From: Saccharospirillum sp.
GTDB taxonomy: Bacteria; Pseudomonadota; Gammaproteobacteria; Pseudomonadales; Natronospirillaceae
Length of the DNA: 64,000 nt
NCBI GenBank assembly: GCA_022565595.1
Contig: JAIUML010000002.1
Span: forward strand, 248,001-312,000
Direction of reading: 5' to 3'
In this document: piece by piece, positions 3,164 to 30,666 of the stretch
Layout: the number at the start of each line of letters is the position of its first letter
Position numbering within the stretch: position 1 is the first letter of the stretch
The notes under the pieces: model-generated
Database searches by the model: none
What the model was told of the DNA's origin: nothing
The model's input: the letters and a program-made list of their open reading frames with translations, nothing else
Position numbers and translations under genes: made by a program

Positions 3164-4726
3164 ATGAGCGTACAAAGCCCCTGGTTGGATAGAATACAGG
3201 CCATCAAACTGCCCGTGCTGATGCAGCAGGACGCCCTGCCCGGCCCATCAGCGCCACTGACTGACTGGATCAAGGCCGGCAGCGAAGACCCACTGCTGGC
3301 CATGCAGATCTTCCGTTACGCCAACCAGATGATGTCCAATCGCCAGGTATTGGTGCGCACCCTGGAGCATGCCGTAGCGCTGATAGGCTCTCAGCGCCTG
3401 CAACGTTTCACCGAAGCCCTGCCCAGGGTTGAACCCGGCAGCATGGCCTTTCAGGGCCTACAGAACACCGTCGGCGACAGCCTCGTCGCGGCCAGCCTGA
3501 TGCGTCAGTGGTTCGAATTGCGCCAGATCCCCTGGACCGAAGCCGACTATTGGATGACGCTCTTTTACGATGCCGGGCTCTGGGCTCTGTGGTTGCTGGA
3601 ACCCCAGATGATGGAAGGCTTCGAGTTCCGTGCCGAAAAAGGCGAAAACCGCTCGCAACTGATGGAAGGCCTGATCGGCATGCCCATTCGAGAGTGGAAC
3701 GAACAACTGTGCCGACACTTTCAGCTACCGGCGGTACCCGAAACCGGCGTCGACGATGATCAGATCATGTCGGAGAATCGCATCCAGCCACACAAACTCT
3801 CGGCCTTGAAGTTTTTTCTGCCATTCAGCCATGAACTGGCCTACCGGGTGCGGTTGTCATGGGAGTCCGAGATACTGGAAACACTGTGCCGGACCGGTGA
3901 AATAGCTCTCGGACTGACCGAGTTTCGGCCGATGTTGAAACGCTGGATAACTTCCGCCGCACGCGAGTACCAACTGCCACAGGCAGCCACGGCTGCGCGG
4001 CGTCTGCTGGCGCAACAACCGGCAGTTTCGACTCAGAAATCCCTTTCTCGACCCGGCTTCAGCGCGGCCGATCTGGCCAGAGCTGCAGCCCTGGGCCATG
4101 CCGATCAAGACGGCAAAGCTCGCAGTCGAAGCGACAAAGCGGCTGTTTCCTCCAGGAAGCCTGATCCCAAAGCACCGATGTCACCCGGCACAAAGAGTCG
4201 CGAACCCGCGCGCTATCGACACAGCATCCAACTCAATAGCTTGCGAGAAATCAGGCGGCAGTTTCGCAACAAGAAGACCTGGCATTCTCCAGTAGAGATT
4301 CAGGAAAGCGCACTCTATGGCCTGCAACAGGGCCTTGGGTTACACCGCATCGTGGTTATGGAATACGCCGAGGGCAGTTGGCGAGCATTCGACAGCGAGG
4401 GCTGCGACCATAGTCCTGGCCTGAAGCACCTGACCCTTACGGAAGAAAAAGGCTCCATGTTGGCCGCCTTCTCCAACCGTGTCACCGCCACCTGGGTGCA
4501 CAAGGGCAACCTGGTCAAGGCGGCACGTCAGCTGCCGGCTAACCTGTTCAAGGCTGCCGATGGTGCGTCCTTTTTTCTGCGCTCATTCAACATTGGCGAT
4601 GAAGTCACCATGCTGATTTATGCCGATGCCAATGACGATCCTGAACCCTTGAGCGAGCAGGACTACCAATTGTTCAGAGAATTTTGCGCCGACTGGAACA
4701 CGGCACTCAATCGGATACGACAATGA
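3164..4726 (+). CDS. HDOD-domain signalling protein
   Basis: 520 residues. The first roughly 270 residues match the HDOD fold, a degenerate HD hydrolase domain found in bacterial signalling proteins: a stretch around AMQIFRYANQM, then VRTLEHAVALIGSQRL. The middle (about 290-345) is polar and low in hydrophobics, probably a linker. The C-terminal 160 residues (HSPVEIQESALYGL onward) look like a GAF-type sensory module. HDOD proteins influence motility, biofilm and c-di-GMP signalling; the specific output cannot be read here. The stop overlaps the psd ATG in an ATGA arrangement, so psd is likely coupled to it. Confidence 0.8.
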   Translation: MSVQSPWLDRIQAIKLPVLMQQDALPGPSAPLTDWIKAGSEDPLLAMQIFRYANQMMSNRQVLVRTLEHAVALIGSQRLQRFTEALPRVEPGSMAFQGLQNTVGDSLVAASLMRQWFELRQIPWTEADYWMTLFYDAGLWALWLLEPQMMEGFEFRAEKGENRSQLMEGLIGMPIREWNEQLCRHFQLPAVPETGVDDDQIMSENRIQPHKLSALKFFLPFSHELAYRVRLSWESEILETLCRTGEIALGLTEFRPMLKRWITSAAREYQLPQAATAARRLLAQQPAVSTQKSLSRPGFSAADLARAAALGHADQDGKARSRSDKAAVSSRKPDPKAPMSPGTKSREPARYRHSIQLNSLREIRRQFRNKKTWHSPVEIQESALYGLQQGLGLHRIVVMEYAEGSWRAFDSEGCDHSPGLKHLTLTEEKGSMLAAFSNRVTATWVHKGNLVKAARQLPANLFKAADGASFFLRSFNIGDEVTMLIYADANDDPEPLSEQDYQLFREFCADWNTALNRIRQ

Positions 4727-24035: not shown

Positions 24036-24203
24036 ATGCCACTGTCACTCTTACTCAAGCTGCTGATTCTCCCCATCTATCTGCTGCTGCCTTTTACTCT
24101 GAACTGGTCGCTGGGACCCTGGCCGTGGCTGTTGCCGTTCGTGATCTGGATTGTGCTGATTCTGGTCAATGCCATGGCTGAAGTCTTGAGGAGCCGGCGC
24201 TGA
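24036..24203 (+). CDS. cbrX: CbrX-like small membrane protein
   Basis: 55 residues, very hydrophobic, with one or two membrane helices (LLLKLLILPIYLLLPF, then WLLPFVIWIVLILVN) and a basic end (RSRR). Its TGA overlaps the cbrA ATG by one base (TGATG). Pseudomonas has a small hydrophobic ORF, cbrX, in the same position and translationally coupled to cbrA. Size, hydropathy and overlap all match. Its molecular role is not visible from sequence; translational control of cbrA is the most likely. Confidence 0.8.
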   Translation: MPLSLLLKLLILPIYLLLPFTLNWSLGPWPWLLPFVIWIVLILVNAMAEVLRSRR

Positions 24204-27139
24204 TGGAGCCGAACTGGCAACTCCTGCTGGCAGCCGGCCTTGCCTATCTGCTGCTGTTGTTTCTGAGCGCTTATGCCGCTGAGCGCGCCTGGTTGCCCAA
24301 GTCCCTGGTTCGTCATCCTATGGTGCGACTGTTGGCGCTGGGCGTCTATTGCAGCGCCTGGGCGTTTTACGGCAGCGTTGGTATGGCCGCCGAACTGGGT
24401 TACGGTTACCTCGCCTATTATGTCGGGCTGGCCATCGCCCTGGTATTCTCGGCCGTTATTCTGCGCCCTGTTCTGGAGCTTGCGAAAAACTATCAGTTGG
24501 CGTCACTGGCTGATCTTTTCGCCTTTCGCTACCGCAGCCGTTGGGCAGGATTGCTCACCACCCTGGCTGTACTATTGGCCATGTTGCCGATGCTGGCCCT
24601 GCAAATTCAGGCCATCACCGACAGCATCACCCTGCTCGACCCCAATACACGCGCCTGGCCAGTCGCCTTGCTGATCTGTTTGCTGTTGTTGCTGTTTTCG
24701 GTGTTGTTCGGCGCACGAGACGTCTCCCCTACGGAGCAGCACCCGGGCTTGATTTTTGCGCTGGCTTTTGAATCCCTGTTCAAGTTGATAGCGCTCCTGG
24801 TGCTCGGCGGCGTCGCCTTGTTTGAACTGCTCGATAACTGGGGCATGGATGTCTTCAACCTCAACTCGGTTCCACCGGAGTTCGTGCTGACTACGCCAGC
24901 CCTGCAACCAGTGCAGTGGTTTTCGCTACTGTTGATGTTCATTTCCGCCCCGCTGGTATTGCCGCATCTGTTTCAACTGTTGTTTCGAGAGGATGCAGAC
25001 CTGCCCAGAATCCGGCTGGCAAGTTGGGCTTTCCCGATTTATCTGTTACTGATGGCCCTGCCAGTGTTGCCACTGCTGTGGGCCGGACAAGGTCTGCTCG
25101 GGCCGGACAACCCTGAATACTATGCTCTTGGGCTCGGCATGGCGCTGGATAAACCCTGGATGGTATGGCTGGCGTTTCTGGGAGGGCTTTCTGCCGCCGC
25201 GGGTATTACCGTCCTGGCGGCCATCGCGCTGGCCAGCATGATGCTGAATCACCTGGTGCTGCCGTTCCACAAACCGCGCTTTGATCGCGATGTTTATCGG
25301 TGGCTGCTTTGGGTACGACGTCTGCTGATCGGCGTAGTGGTGATCCTTTCCTACACCCTTTATCTGTTCCTGAACCAGGTCCAAAGCCTGTCTTCGCTGG
25401 GCATTATTGCCTCTACTGGTCTGTTGCAACTGCTGCCTGGCATATTGGGCTTGCTGTTCTGGTCCGGCGCCAATCGTAAAGGCTATTTGGCGGGGCTGGT
25501 GGTCGGGTTGGCGGTCTGGGCGAGCAGCCTGCTGTTTCCCATGCTGACCACCAGCCTGGACTTCGCCGAGCGTCTGCCTTTGCACTTCGCCATGAATCAT
25601 GATCAATGGTCGCACACCACCCTGCTCTCACTCGGCCTGAATACCCTGGTGTTCATCCTGGTGTCTGTATTCACCAAAACCCCAAGAGACGAGCAGGAAG
25701 CCGCTCAAACCTGTGTCATCACTTCTGTCGACCGCCGCCACCGTCTGCCGCTGAAAGCTCTGAACGCCAACGAGTTCATTGACGCCCTGCGACGCCCCCT
25801 GGGCCAAATCATGGCCGAGCAGGAGGTCAAAAGGGCACTGAAGCAATTGGGCTCTCCACTTGGTGAGTATCGACCCTATGCCCTGCGTCGGCTGCGTGAC
25901 ACCATCGAGGCCAACCTGTCTGGCCTGATGGGGCCAAGCGTTGCCCAGGCGCTGGTCGATCGCTACTTGCCCTACGTGGTCGAAGGCGAAAACAATAGAG
26001 ACGACATCTACTTTTTTGAACAACGGCTGGATGGCTTCCATCACCAGTTGACGGGGATGGCCGCAGAACTGGACCGCCTACGCCGTCACCACAGAGAAAC
26101 CCTCTATAACCTGCCTATTGGCGTCTGCTCGCTGGCGGATGACGGTGAAATTCTCCTCTGGAATCGGGTCATGGCAGAAATGACCGGTATCAGCGAGGAT
26201 CAGGCTATTGGTGCCCGCCTGGATTCCTTGCCAGCCCATTGGTACGACCTGCTCGACAGTTTCCTGAAAAGCACCACGACCAAGCTGACTGTCGAGCAGC
26301 CGGACCCTGGCAGCCAAGGCAAACGCTGGTTCAGCCTTCACCGCAACGCGGCTGAACGCCAGGCTGAGGGCATCGTCATCCTGCTCGAAGATGAAACCGA
26401 GAACAAAATGCTCGAGTCCGAACTGGTGCATTCCGAGCGTCTTGCCTCCATCGGTCGATTGGCTGCCGGAGTCGCCCATGAAATTGGCAACCCCATCACC
26501 GGTATTGATTGCCTGGCACAAGACCTGAAGTACGCAGAAAATCGTGAAGATATCGAACAGATCGGTCAGCAGATACGAGAACAGGCCTTGCGTGTAACGA
26601 AAATTGTACGATCACTGGTCAATTTCTCTCACGCAGGCCAGGATGAAGACAAGAGCGAACACCAGCCCTACTCACTGCAACAGGTGGTTCAGGACGCCAT
26701 CGACCTGCTGTCGTTGTCCCGAGACGTCAACCCGGTCATCTTTATCAATGAGGTGCCCGCCCAACTGATCGTCCTCTGTGACGCTCAGCGGCTGAGCCAG
26801 GTTTTTATCAACCTGCTTGGCAACGCCCGCGATGCCAGCCCGGCGAATGAAGTCATCCGGGTGATCGCCACTGGAGAAGAAGAAAGTGTTGTCGTCGAGG
26901 TCATCGACCGAGGCGGCGGCATCAATCAGAACGACCTGGATCATATCTTCGACCCCTTTTTTACCACCAAGGAAGTGGGCAAGGGCACCGGTCTGGGACT
27001 GTTTCTCGCCTACAGCATCGTTGAAGAGCACTACGGCCATATCAGCGCCGAAAGCCCGGCTTTCGCTACAGAGGGCCTGGGCACTCGATTTATTATCCGC
27101 TTACCCTTGCATCGAGTGTTACCTGAGGTAACATCGTAG
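24203..27139 (+). CDS. cbrA: CbrA sensor histidine kinase with SLC5-type transporter domain
   Basis: 978 residues, as in Pseudomonas. Residues about 1-480 form a sodium/solute symporter (SLC5) domain of about 13 helices; a linker follows, then a PAS domain (about 635-740, YNLPIGVCSLADDGEILLWN), a HisKA region with GVAHEIGNP (His near 757), and an ATPase domain (NLLGNARDAS, DRGGGI, GKGTGLGLFLAY). CbrA with CbrB governs carbon/nitrogen balance; in Pseudomonas the transporter domain can move histidine. Starts one base before the end of cbrX, and cbrB follows 41 bp later. Confidence 0.95.
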   Translation: MEPNWQLLLAAGLAYLLLLFLSAYAAERAWLPKSLVRHPMVRLLALGVYCSAWAFYGSVGMAAELGYGYLAYYVGLAIALVFSAVILRPVLELAKNYQLASLADLFAFRYRSRWAGLLTTLAVLLAMLPMLALQIQAITDSITLLDPNTRAWPVALLICLLLLLFSVLFGARDVSPTEQHPGLIFALAFESLFKLIALLVLGGVALFELLDNWGMDVFNLNSVPPEFVLTTPALQPVQWFSLLLMFISAPLVLPHLFQLLFREDADLPRIRLASWAFPIYLLLMALPVLPLLWAGQGLLGPDNPEYYALGLGMALDKPWMVWLAFLGGLSAAAGITVLAAIALASMMLNHLVLPFHKPRFDRDVYRWLLWVRRLLIGVVVILSYTLYLFLNQVQSLSSLGIIASTGLLQLLPGILGLLFWSGANRKGYLAGLVVGLAVWASSLLFPMLTTSLDFAERLPLHFAMNHDQWSHTTLLSLGLNTLVFILVSVFTKTPRDEQEAAQTCVITSVDRRHRLPLKALNANEFIDALRRPLGQIMAEQEVKRALKQLGSPLGEYRPYALRRLRDTIEANLSGLMGPSVAQALVDRYLPYVVEGENNRDDIYFFEQRLDGFHHQLTGMAAELDRLRRHHRETLYNLPIGVCSLADDGEILLWNRVMAEMTGISEDQAIGARLDSLPAHWYDLLDSFLKSTTTKLTVEQPDPGSQGKRWFSLHRNAAERQAEGIVILLEDETENKMLESELVHSERLASIGRLAAGVAHEIGNPITGIDCLAQDLKYAENREDIEQIGQQIREQALRVTKIVRSLVNFSHAGQDEDKSEHQPYSLQQVVQDAIDLLSLSRDVNPVIFINEVPAQLIVLCDAQRLSQVFINLLGNARDASPANEVIRVIATGEEESVVVEVIDRGGGINQNDLDHIFDPFFTTKEVGKGTGLGLFLAYSIVEEHYGHISAESPAFATEGLGTRFIIRLPLHRVLPEVTS
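27117..27133. promoter_or_regulatory. Perfect TGTTACC-TGA-GGTAACA palindrome before cbrB
   Basis: A 17-bp dyad with 7-bp perfect arms overlaps the last codons of cbrA and lies about 48 bp upstream of the cbrB ATG. Its GTAACA half is identical to the three repeats in front of the sRNA promoter at 28.7 kb, so it may be a CbrB site for autoregulation. A transcript hairpin is the alternative. Confidence 0.5.
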
Positions 27140-27180: not shown

Positions 27181-28617
27181 ATGAGTTCGATTCTGGTTGT
27201 TGAAGATGAAAGCATCATTCGTTCGGCGTTAAAACGCCTGCTGGAACGCCACCAGTATCAGGTGACTGAAGCCGAATCCGTCACTGAAGCCAGCCAGCAC
27301 GACCTCAACCAGTTTGACTTGATCATCACCGACCTGCGCTTACCCGGTGCGCCCGGTACCGACCTGATCGATATGGCCAAAGACGTGCCGGTATTGATCA
27401 TGACCAGCTACGCCAGTATGAAATCGGCGGTCGATGCCATGAAAATGGGAGCGGTCGACTACATCGCCAAACCCTTTGACCACGAGGAAATGGTGCGTAC
27501 CGTGGGTCGGGTCGTCAATGAACGCCGCCAGAACCGAGTCCAGATCGATGCAGACACGGCAGAGAATGAAGAGCCGAATCATGACCCCTACAGCACCCTG
27601 GGTGATCTGGTGGGTAGCTGTGAGGCCATGCAACGCCTCTACAAACGCATAAAACGAGTCGCACCGGCTGATGTTACCGTCCTGATTCACGGTGAATCCG
27701 GCACCGGTAAGGAGTTGGCTGCTCGTGCCATCCATCAATACAGCCCCAGACATGACAAACCCATGGTCAGCGTCAACTGTGCAGCCATTCCAGAAAGCCT
27801 GATCGAGTCTGAGCTCTTCGGCCACGAGAAGGGCGCCTTTACCGGCGCAACTGCGGCCCGTCAGGGTCTGGTTGAAGCAGCCGAAGGCGGCTCCCTGTTC
27901 CTCGATGAGATCGGTGAGCTACCGATGGAAGCCCAGGCACGGCTGTTACGGGTACTGCAGGAAAACGAAGTGCGTCGCGTCGGCTCAGTTCATGCTCGCA
28001 CCGTCGATGTACGGCTGATTGCCGCCACTCACCGCAATCTCAAGCAACTGGTGAAAGAGTCTCGCTTCCGGGAAGACCTTTACTACCGGTTGCAGGTGAT
28101 CGAAGTAACGCTGCCACCACTGCGCGAACGTGGCCAGGACGTTATCGAGATCGCTGAGCATTTACTGACCAAGCACAGCCGACGTTTGAAAATGGACACT
28201 CCTATCCGCCTTACCAAAGACGTGCGAAAAATGCTGATAAAGTACGACTGGCCCGGCAACGTCCGCGAACTGGAGAACGCAGTACAGCGAGCCCTGATCC
28301 TCTGTGATAACGGCGAAATCGGCCTGGAAGAGCTTGGCCTCGACCAGACCGACTGGCACATCCCCGAAACCCTGGCCAGCAGTTCACCTGCGGCTATCAC
28401 TCAAGTCGCCCAGCCAGGACCCGGTAACGGCGAGAGTGATGACCTCTCTCTGGAAGACTACTTCCAACACTTTGTGATGGAACACCAGGACAGCATGTCC
28501 GAAACCGAGCTGGCTCAAAAATTGGGTATCAGCCGGAAGTGCCTATGGGAACGCCGCCAACGGCTTGGCATCCCACGTCCCAAAAAGACCGGTTCCAGCA
28601 CCTCAGCTAGCCTCTGA
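27181..28617 (+). CDS. cbrB: CbrB sigma54-dependent response regulator
   Basis: 478 residues, NtrC family. REC domain with Asp near residue 51 ([10 protein letters not shown]), AAA+ domain with Walker A GESGTGKE (about 170), the sigma54-contact loop GAFTGA (about 217) and Walker [11 protein letters not shown], then a Fis-type helix-turn-helix at the end ([19 protein letters not shown]). Activated by CbrA, it drives crcZ-type sRNAs and catabolic genes from sigma54 promoters. Such a promoter with phased repeats lies 230 bp downstream. GGAG precedes the ATG. Confidence 0.96.
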
Positions 28618-28726
28618 TCTCTCTTCAAATCAGAACCCTTGCCTCGCGCCACCTGCAGCAAAATCCGCTGTGGGTCGATGTTGTATGCCCGCCATTTCGC
28701 TTCAATAATCGCGAACACTCATCAGA

Positions 28727-28774
28727 GTAACAGCCTCACCACATTGAGTAACAGAGTTGCCACCTTAGGTAACA
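28727..28774 (+). promoter_or_regulatory. Three GTAACA direct repeats at exact 21-bp spacing (probable CbrB activator sites)
   Basis: GTAACA occurs at 28727-28732, 28748-28753 and 28769-28774, in the contexts AGAGTAACAG, TGAGTAACAG and TAGGTAACAA. Starts are 21 bp apart, two helical turns, so all face the same side of DNA. The last lies about 75 bp before the -24 element, normal for a sigma54 activator. CbrB sites in Pseudomonas contain TGTTAC/GTAACA half-sites, hence the assignment. Confidence 0.72.
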
Positions 28775-28847
28775 AGCCTCGCTTTACCCACTGCTTACAT
28801 TTTAACCACAAAAGTATAACCTATTGTTTTTAAAGGATTTTATAAAG

Positions 28848-28864
28848 TTGGCACAAGGAGTGCT
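28848..28864 (+). promoter_or_regulatory. Sigma54 (-24/-12) promoter of the CrcZ-like RNA
   Basis: TTGGCACAAGGAGTGCT matches the RpoN consensus TTGGCAC-N5-TTGC(A/T) except for one base; the invariant GG (28850-28851) and GC (28862-28863) are exactly 10 bp apart. Predicted transcription start is about 28875, just ahead of the A/C-rich hairpin array. Confidence 0.82.
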
Positions 28865-28874
28865 ATCCCCTAAG

Positions 28875-29130
28875 CGCAATGCAGGAAAGGCCCAGCAACA
28901 AAAACAACAACGGGCCAACTCAAAGCGCCCCCGCCCAAAAACAACAACAAGGGGGTTGCATCACTAAATAGGCAAGGCGTAACAACAACAAGAAAAACGC
29001 CCAATAACGATAACGACAATAAAAACAACAACGTTAACAATAACAAGAACGCCATAAAGCGCGACGCCAACAAGAAGAACAAGCCTGTCGTCCTGCATCC
29101 ATGCTGCTATAGCCGACGTCCAGTCGGCTG
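28875..29130 (+). ncRNA. crcZ: CrcZ-like Hfq/Crc-sequestering small RNA
   Basis: Five consecutive hairpins carry A/C-rich loops: stems 28889-28893/28912-28916, 28928-28932/28951-28955, 28976-28980/28997-29001, 29011-29015/29032-29036 and 29061-29065/29087-29091. Loops are 16-21 nt and contain AACAACAA, AAAACAACAA or AACAAGAAGAA-type motifs, the A-rich 'CA motif' bound by Hfq with Crc. CrcZ in Pseudomonas carries several such motifs, is activated by CbrB and sigma54, and titrates Hfq/Crc to lift carbon catabolite repression. Position between cbrB and pcnB and the promoter agree. The 3' end is uncertain: the last hairpin (29111-29129) lacks a U-tract, so the RNA could run further. Confidence 0.8.
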
Positions 29131-29313
29131 CTCGTCCCCCTCAAACTCTTCTGCATCCAGACTCCCGGACAGTTTACTGCACTTCTATTTATCGACGAAA
29201 TGGACGGCCCTTCGACCAGATCGACGCGAGGTTGTGCACAAACATGGAGAATCCTCGCTTGTTCCGCTAAACTGCGCGCTCCTTGTCATAAACTAGAGAT
29301 GTATTACGGACCC

Positions 29314-30666
29314 ATGGTCGTGGAATGGATTAAACGCTGGTTACCGCAAAAAACATTGGAACAGTCAAAGGCGTTGGTGTCCGTCAGTCGCGACAACCAC
29401 CGTATTTCCCGCAAAGACATCAGCCCCAATGCCCTGAAAGTGCTGTATCGCCTTCAAAATGCCGGATACGAGAGCTTTCTGGTGGGTGGCTGTGTGCGCG
29501 ATTTGCAATTGGGTTTGCATCCGAAAGACTTTGATGTCGCAACCGATGCCACGCCAGAACAGGTGCGCAAGCTGTTCAGCAATTCACGGCTTATCGGGCG
29601 TCGATTCAAGATCGTCCATGTTACCTTTGGTCGCGAAATCATCGAAGTCACCACCTTTCGTGGCCGCGCTGAAGAAACCGAAGCCGACCCGAGCCTGCAG
29701 CGAGAATCGGAACAAGGGCTTCTGCTGCGCGACAACGTCTATGGCTCTCTTGAAGAAGACGCCGAACGCCGCGACTTTACCATCAACGCGCTTTACTATA
29801 CGCCCAGCGATTTCAGCATACAGGCCTTTGGCAGTGCGCTGGAGGACCTTGAGAATCGCACTCTGCGCATTATCGGTGACCCACAGAAACGCTATCGCGA
29901 AGACCCGGTTCGAATGCTGCGCGCCGTCCGTTTTGCGGCCAAGCTGGACCTGACCATTGAGCCCAACACGGCGAACTGCATCGCCGAAATGGCACCCTTG
30001 CTGAGCCATGTAGCGGCAGCCAGACTGTTCGACGAAATTCTCAAGCTGCTGATGGCGGGCCATGGCGTAGCAACCTGGCGACTGATGCAGGAGTATCAAC
30101 TGATTGAACCGCTGTTCCCCGATACTTTCCTGGCATTGAACCTGAACAGCGACCGGCATTACCATACCTTCATTGAACAGGCTCTGGTCAATACTGATCT
30201 GCGTATCAACCGTTCAAAGCCCGTGACACCGGCCTTTCTCTATGCTGCCCTGTTATGGCCGGCCGTGCGCGAAGAGGCTGAACACCAGATCAGCATGGGC
30301 ACACCAGAATACCCAGCATGGCAACAAGCAATGACGCGCATCGTCAGCCAGCAGGTGCGCTCCATCGCCATTCCCAAACGCTTTTCCATTCCCATGAAGG
30401 AAATCTGGGAATTGCAATTAAGGCTGCCCAAACGCAGCGCCAAAAAAGCCGAATTGCTGGTCACCCATCCCCGCTTCCGCGCCGCCTACGATTTTCTGGT
30501 GCTGCGCGAGCAGGCCGGTGAGGATCTCGACGGTCTGGGCCAATGGTGGACAGACTACCAGGATCAGAACCCCGAGGTGCGCCAGCAGATGGCCAAAGTT
30601 GCCAACAGCAGCAGCCGACGCCCCAGGCGTCGGCGGCGGCCTGCAGACGACAACACAACCTCGTGA
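29314..30666 (+). CDS. pcnB: Poly(A) polymerase I
   Basis: 450 residues from ATG 29314. Adds poly(A) tails to RNAs and so promotes their decay. The class II nucleotidyltransferase core shows FLVGGCVRDL and the metal-binding KDFDVATDA, followed by GRRFKIVHVTFG and RRDFTINALYY. The start is placed where the family begins (the HRISRKDISPNALKVLYRL block is about 30 residues in); earlier in-frame ATGs would cover non-conserved leader DNA. The basic Arg-rich C-terminus is typical. Overlaps folK by 4 bp. Confidence 0.95.
   Translation: MVVEWIKRWLPQKTLEQSKALVSVSRDNHRISRKDISPNALKVLYRLQNAGYESFLVGGCVRDLQLGLHPKDFDVATDATPEQVRKLFSNSRLIGRRFKIVHVTFGREIIEVTTFRGRAEETEADPSLQRESEQGLLLRDNVYGSLEEDAERRDFTINALYYTPSDFSIQAFGSALEDLENRTLRIIGDPQKRYREDPVRMLRAVRFAAKLDLTIEPNTANCIAEMAPLLSHVAAARLFDEILKLLMAGHGVATWRLMQEYQLIEPLFPDTFLALNLNSDRHYHTFIEQALVNTDLRINRSKPVTPAFLYAALLWPAVREEAEHQISMGTPEYPAWQQAMTRIVSQQVRSIAIPKRFSIPMKEIWELQLRLPKRSAKKAELLVTHPRFRAAYDFLVLREQAGEDLDGLGQWWTDYQDQNPEVRQQMAKVANSSSRRPRRRRRPADDNTTS

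Follow-up and report, generated by a model that had tools for sequence, protein, structure and literature searches.

Our analysis indicates that the interval from 28875 to about 29140 very probably encodes a CrcZ-like decoy small RNA, which would be driven by CbrB and sigma-54 and would titrate Hfq/Crc. This reading rests on an A-rich array, its predicted fold, the promoter, covariation among relatives, loop length and the presence of Hfq and Crc. The window, by which we mean the whole 64-kb stretch of DNA that was analysed (G000:C2:248001-312000), belongs to a host genome of 4.77 Mb that is 99.94% complete. The initial annotation had proposed a CrcZ-like RNA at this place, and the putative sigma-54 site, CbrB-type subsites, IHF-like site, CbrA/CbrB, Hfq and Crc identified here are consistent with that proposal.

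The A-rich array and its promoter

The element lies in the 696-nt gap between cbrB and pcnB, and the features of the locus are as follows.

24203 to 27139, + strand: cbrA, sensor kinase (ORF; SSF-like N-terminus, PAS, HisKA, HATPase)
27181 to 28617, + strand: cbrB, NtrC-type sigma-54 activator (Pfam Sigma54_activat, Response_reg)
28727 to 28732, + strand: CbrB-type subsite 1, GTAACA, by pattern
28748 to 28753, + strand: CbrB-type subsite 2, GTAACA, 21 bp after subsite 1
28769 to 28774, + strand: CbrB-type subsite 3, GTAACA, 21 bp after subsite 2
28817 to 28829, - strand: IHF-like site (one mismatch), located 32 bp upstream of the -24 element
28849 to 28864, + strand: sigma-54 -24/-12 promoter TGGCAC-N6-TGCT, exact match of TGGCACNNNNNNTGCW
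28875 to 29140, + strand: predicted CrcZ-like A-rich decoy RNA (array, fold, model R1), its start set by the promoter and its end by the terminal hairpin
29314 to 30666, + strand: pcnB, poly(A) polymerase, ATG at 29314 (NCBIfam TIGR01942 above cut-off)

Nineteen overlapping copies of AANAANAA occur on the + strand within 28875-29130, where an A-rich array had been claimed, against a maximum of 2 per 256-nt window on either strand elsewhere in the 64 kb (step 16 nt, none of these windows overlapping the element). The sites form six A-rich clusters. The claimed place between cbrB and pcnB was likewise confirmed, with cbrB ending at 28617 and the pcnB ATG at 29314. In CbrA, Pfam HATPase_c, HisKA and PAS scored above cut-off and SSF slightly under it (22.5 vs 22.8 bits), while CbrB shares 59-62% identity with its positional counterpart in named Pseudomonas loci. 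None of the 25 NCBIfam models listed for CbrA or CbrB scored above cut-off, and the two names therefore rest on synteny, domains and identity.

The exact match of TGGCACNNNNNNTGCW is the only one in the window and starts 26 bp upstream of 28875. With one mismatch allowed, TGGCAC-N6-TGCW gave 17 matches in the window against 15.3 expected, which is the chance level, so the exact site alone was counted. A sigma-54 plus AACAA pattern found two places in the host's own genome, its spacing limit barring the window's own site. The CbrB subsites of P. putida (TGTTAC/GTAACA) have centres 20-25 bp apart and IHF assists there, according to the accessible part of the report (PMC6296734). At least one exact subsite was present in 116 of 117 comparable promoters, namely 19/19 pcnB-linked promoters of the host family, 17/17 at second loci (described below), 25/25 in Pseudomonas and 55/56 others, whereas mononucleotide shuffles gave an expected fraction of 0.09-0.16 (0.15 for the pcnB-linked host-family promoters). 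Subsite pairs 18-26 bp apart were found in 14/19, 14/17, 24/25 and 25/56 promoters of the same four groups, the fraction expected from shuffles being at most 0.002. An IHF-like site, called with what we take to be the IHF consensus, accompanied 18/19, 15/17, 17/25 and 40/56 of them (expected fractions 0.10, 0.10, 0.02 and 0.08), and in the 18 host-family promoters it stood at -32 or -33. At locus L115, the Rfam 'P36' sRNA (RF01679) matched 3219-3279, roughly the position expected for the CbrB subsites in Pseudomonas crcZ; RF01679 may represent a conserved enhancer instead of an RNA.

Conserved hairpins and loop length

The element folded with -66.3 kcal/mol (z -4.37), whereas dinucleotide shuffles averaged -46.8 (sd 4.5) and none of the 200 reached its energy, so that the folding of this region, which the initial annotation had offered for checking, was borne out. 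The predicted structures are given below with mean pair probabilities (P) from the fold ensemble of 28875-29200.

28889-28893/28912-28916, + strand: H1, 5-bp stem, 18-nt A-rich loop, P 1.00
28927-28932/28951-28956, + strand: H2, conserved core, 6-bp stem, 18-nt A-rich loop, P 0.91
28976-28980/28997-29001, + strand: H3, 5-bp stem, 16-nt A-rich loop, P 0.95
29011-29015/29032-29036, + strand: H4, marginal, 5-bp stem, 16-nt A-rich loop, P 0.50
about 29059-29095, + strand: H5 as claimed, P 0.07 at best in the whole RNA
28879-28886/29091-29098, + strand: long-range closing helix, P 0.97
29110 to 29130, + strand: GC-rich terminal hairpin, terminator-like, lacking a clear U run, P 0.94

Five hairpins in a regular row had been claimed. 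H1 to H3 were well supported and H4 marginally so, and three of the six A-rich clusters sit in well-supported hairpin loops; H5 appeared only when folded in isolation, its competitors in the whole RNA being the long-range helices 28879-28886/29091-29098 (0.97) and 28968-28973/29083-29088 (0.86). The arms of the closing helix (GCAGG/CCUGC) are retained in part of the host family, where their mean score of 12.8 shows no excess over the 12.5 of mismatched arms, and the helix is therefore kept as a fold prediction only.

The host family was sampled with 22 genomes from 10 genera. Alignment A2 spans H1-H2 in 21 rows (20 distinct), leaving out G009, G012 and G013, in which no promoter was found. In A2, 72.8% of cells were paired, against 61.6 (sd 1.8) in shuffles, and the covariation score was 0.346, against 0.155 (sd 0.022) in shuffles and at most 0.161 with slid partner columns; the number of pair types (18 vs 15.1) is less telling, being reached by 49 of 500 shuffles. 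The paired fraction was 84.2% for H2 and 57.0% for H1, and RNAalifold on A2 recovered H2, where 4 of 5 pairs show changes on both sides, and missed H1. Adding the second copies gave alignment A4, with 40 rows, of which 36 are distinct (L052 and L222 span identical positions), L221 and L222 having been left out of alignment A3. In A4, 83.1% of cells were paired, against 64.1 (sd 1.4) in shuffles; both-sided changes occurred in 90 cells, against 34.0 (sd 4.4), and covariation was 0.501, against 0.186 (sd 0.017). For H2, both-sided changes were seen in 6 of 7 pairs with 91.7% of cells paired, and for H1 in 5 of 5 pairs with 70.9%. A4 was fitted to the model structure and hence leans towards it, which A2 was not.

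The predicted H2 stem is thus strongly supported by relatives and the H1 stem more weakly. Compensatory change in the stems of relatives had been set beforehand as one of the observations on which the proposal would stand or fall, and it was found for H2 and, less strongly, for H1. Of the five-fold row, H1 and H2 persist in relatives and H3-H5 are not retained as such even among relatives within the genus, which points to a two-hairpin conserved core accompanied by lineage-specific A-rich stretches, with no fixed number of five. One relative (G003) carries a 44-nt A-rich run, and a stem scan found nothing closing it.

The distance between the arms of H2 was 18 nt in 38 of the 40 A4 rows and 19 nt in the other 2, and its innermost pair was formed in 36 of the 38 rows with 18 nt. 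For H1, the distance was 17, 18 and 19 nt in 3, 28 and 9 rows, respectively, and the innermost pair was unformed in 18 rows.

Loop display was examined by motif-anchored shuffling, in which the A-rich motifs were fixed and the other bases shuffled (first 260 nt per RNA, 20 shuffles); the counts treat related sequences as independent. In the host family, 55 of 83 A-rich clusters lay in hairpin loops (0.66, null 0.22, sd 0.05, maximum 0.36). The fraction was 0.71 in Halomonadaceae (47 of 66, mostly in loops of 12-18 nt; null 0.22, maximum 0.32), 0.38 in other named genera (null 0.20, maximum 0.31), 0.30 in other families (null 0.17, maximum 0.23) and 0.27 in 25 Pseudomonas RNAs (27 of 99; null 0.19, maximum 0.25), so that it exceeded the largest of the 20 shuffles in every group. 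Loop display is thus widespread and is strongest in the host family and Halomonadaceae. An earlier control with mismatched flanks had found stems scoring at least 10 at 46/83 clusters in the host family (0.55 vs 0.26), 54/73 in Halomonadaceae (vs 0.35) and 43/148 in Pseudomonas (vs 0.15); the motif-anchored shuffle was then preferred, as the flank control draws on homologous flanks inside one family. The RNAs of Halomonadaceae (L112, L124, L125, L130, L137, L144 and others) hold about six A-rich clusters each, 73 in 12 RNAs.

Loops of exactly 18 nt numbered 26 in the host family, against a null mean of 1.0 and maximum of 4. There were 3 in Halomonadaceae, 4 in other named genera, 3 in other families and 1 in Pseudomonas, with null maxima of 2, 2, 1 and 4, respectively; Halomonadaceae loops spread over 8-23 nt and those of Pseudomonas peak at 17 nt (first 260 nt). 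The dominance of 18 nt is a feature of the host family.

Distribution, second copies and co-occurrence with Crc

pcnB was present in all 57 genomes searched, host included; G023 was left out of all upstream counts. A sigma-54 site followed by an A-rich RNA before pcnB was found in 19 of 22 host-family genomes, the exceptions being G009, G012 and G013. A further survey took the best 80 named pcnB loci and is therefore not a random sample; in it the layout was seen in 55 of 58 loci that we assign to the order and in 0 of 19 loci of other orders, and also in 2 of 3 unassigned MAGs, which were left out of the named tally. Three loci of the order lacked it: a Halomonas contig on which 666 bases precede the match, Alcanivorax limicola and a Porticoccaceae MAG. 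Named loci with the cbrB-pcnB layout included Marinobacter, Halomonas, Microbulbifer, Cellvibrio, Oceanospirillum and Marinomonas, genera that we take to be members of the order.

Identity with CrcZ by the Rfam model, a check that the initial annotation had named, was not obtained. RF01675, in which membership means a covariance-model score above 95 bits, a score that the element does not reach, gave no gathering match in the window and none in 28618-29313 at E up to 10, and the case accordingly rests on place, promoter and comparison. Among 390 genomes of the order, RF01675 scored above cut-off in 19, which belong to families f20 (presumably Pseudomonadaceae) and f2 only, and at E <= 1e-3 it was found in 71, none of them from the host family. 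Model R1, built from A2 (that is, from the host and related sequences), matched 28875-28962 with 77.6 bits and was found at E <= 0.01 in 41 of the 390 genomes, 18 of them in the host family. In the 47 of the 80 named loci that were searched, matches outside the host family were weak (best 43.6 bits, L116).

R1 matched 20 of the 22 host-family genomes, 18 of the 22 at two or more places. In the host genome, a further A-rich RNA that is linked to a sigma-54 site and shares the H1/H2 module was predicted at G000:C31:14881-14975 (L205; R1 58.2 bits). Over this and the other second loci (L206-L220), the module is found close to hemH in two genera and at different places in the remaining ones; one small gene is common to the surroundings in 13 of 13 genomes of the two genera, and hemH occurs in 11 of the 13 stretches. 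A sigma-54 site was found at 17 of 18 second loci examined, each of the 17 with at least one CbrB subsite. The predicted second RNA is a CrcY-like paralogue. In two genomes (G008 and G010), promoter and RNA occur twice in tandem before pcnB (L046, L048 and L052/L222 being tandem or extra-copy loci), and G014 has an extra copy roughly 1.5 kb farther upstream than the first.

These copies bear on an alternative in which the element belongs to the pcnB mRNA as its 5' leader: sigma-54 transcription would continue into the gene, and the A-rich loops would let Hfq/Crc regulate pcnB in cis. The element does lie on the same strand, 183 nt upstream of pcnB, its place before this gene is widely retained, and a promoter/terminator scan of the + strand called nothing, the terminal hairpin included. 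However, that GC-rich hairpin closes the element, and a similar one is visible in most of 19 host-family sequences; in most genomes of the family another copy, preceded by the same arrangement of promoter elements, stands away from pcnB; and in named loci the sigma-54 site and the pcnB match are separated by anything from about 320 to 790 nt. We consider the leader reading improbable.

The host genome encodes both Hfq and Crc, the partners that a CrcZ-type decoy requires. At one position, which we take to belong to the distal face, Hfq (L106, 1501-1689, - strand) carries Phe, and the two solved Hfq chains aligned with it carry Tyr. A 253-residue protein had P. aeruginosa Crc as its best PDB match (E 1.4e-71), followed by another Crc (2.1e-71) and an exonuclease III entry (3.7e-71), a near tie by which the PDB ranking alone cannot tell Crc from the nuclease entry. 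The protein shares with Crc the segment gsyqiah/GSLYVAH, which is presumably altered relative to the nuclease active site. The ORF adjoining the Crc gene, read by eye, is putatively pyrE.

Crc was called at E <= 1e-40, a threshold of our own choosing. In 56 genomes, 43 had both the RNA and Crc, 1 the RNA only (G036, which has a Crc match at 7e-37), 7 Crc only and 5 neither (Fisher p 0.001). In a one-per-family table, entered by hand with the host family as one "both", the counts were 25, 1, 5 and 4 (p 0.01). Seven of the 50 genomes with Crc thus failed the RNA criterion at pcnB: G009 has no R1 match anywhere, G012 has one elsewhere, G026, G033 and G052 have A-rich stretches before pcnB lacking a sigma-54 match, and the others are G028 and G048. 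The five genomes lacking a clear Crc (G013, G037, G038, G044 and G053) also lack the A-rich RNA before pcnB, which suggests that the two were lost jointly in them.

The same table bears on whether a decoy RNA of this build might mainly bind another A-rich-RNA-binding protein, or Hfq without Crc. Some genomes do hold the RNA or Crc alone, and the Phe of the host Hfq would fit such a reading, but the RNA and Crc tend to co-occur even when families are counted once, and the AAN periodicity and 18-nt loops suit the distal face of Hfq as described in the available portion of PMC6422490; we judge a different main ligand very unlikely. A short coding sequence or chance low-complexity repeat has next to no likelihood and the coding reading was rejected, since the stems covary and the longest frames of 19 family sequences (15 to 87 codons) have none in common, with ATG/GTG/TTG frames in the RNA of the window reaching 30 codons at most, although one frame stays open for 89 codons, up to where the examined stretch ends, and G000 and G002 share an ATG position with frames of 30 and 50 codons.

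Proposed mechanism and comparison with known systems

For the CrcZ-like decoy, we infer transcription, induction, Hfq/Crc binding, stoichiometry and targets as follows. CbrA/CbrB, which are presumably active under a shortage of preferred carbon, would drive the RNA by way of the three CbrB sites upstream, a bend assisted by IHF and the sigma-54 promoter. The stems of H1 and H2 would clamp about 18 nt, the length that fills the six pockets on the distal face of one Hfq hexamer. A closed 18-nt loop can give one full turn, suggesting that each clamped loop may hold one hexamer, with Crc. In H1 and H2, an AAN run of 14-15 nt is joined to a spacer of 3-4 nt, so about five of the six Hfq pockets would be filled by A-R-N. 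Hfq/Crc held on the RNA would leave catabolic mRNAs free from Hfq/Crc repression.

More tentatively, and with slightly less than an even chance of being right, the covarying stem and fixed 18-nt A-rich loop may form a portable cassette, a ring fitting one turn of the Hfq distal face, whose number would set decoy strength; the CbrAB-driven set, often two per genome, would then be ancestral to the order and no invention of Pseudomonadaceae. If these RNAs work alike, much of the order would share a regulatory logic in which Hfq/Crc titration relieves catabolite repression. The H2 loop, with its constant 18 nt, also offers a directly testable tie of RNA architecture to hexamer geometry in Hfq.

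A 2022 review, in the portion available, describes cbrA-cbrB-crcZ in Pseudomonas and Azotobacter only and calls it "unique" to Pseudomonadaceae (PMC8871633), with which the CrcZ-like layout across the order contrasts. In the open literature, with subscription papers mostly uncovered, a search for CrcZ with Marinobacter, Halomonas or Oceanospirillales found, among the papers listed, no report of the RNA outside Pseudomonadaceae, and a search on CrcZ and covariation found, among the works listed, no report of such a test. The loop display, put forward in the initial annotation as new, is not so in itself, since the accessible part of PMC5429807 predicts A-rich motifs on loops for CrcZ and CrcY of Azotobacter vinelandii. 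The layout is seen across the order, beyond one genus.

The amiE leader bound by Hfq/Crc (amiE6ARN), in which A-R-N repeats fill six Hfq pockets (PMC6422490, in the part available), is an mRNA target studied as a linear 18-mer, whereas the host element is a predicted decoy with hairpin loops; both amiE6ARN and the H1/H2 loops are 18 nt long. In Pseudomonas CrcZ the A-rich stretches number six, and a fragment that holds three yields three shifts with Hfq, as far as the accessible text of PMC4063720 goes. CrcZ of Pseudomonas (RF01675) shares with the host element its place between cbrB and pcnB, a sigma-54 promoter, CbrB subsites, an IHF-like site and several AANAANAA motifs, and two hairpins in the RF01675 consensus have A-rich loops, of 18 nt in a GGGC/GCCC hairpin and of 22 nt in another. 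CrcY/CrcX of Pseudomonas and CrcY of A. vinelandii are likewise second RNAs under the same control; unlike CrcY/CrcX, the second copy in the host family lies near hemH in two genera and has H1/H2 in common with the first. In the host family, the A-rich motifs sit mostly in loops, compared with 0.27 of clusters in Pseudomonas. The host RNA, at about 265 nt predicted, is shorter than the 398 positions of the Rfam CrcZ model and, in contrast to Pseudomonas CrcZ, carries two 18-nt loops near its 5' end.
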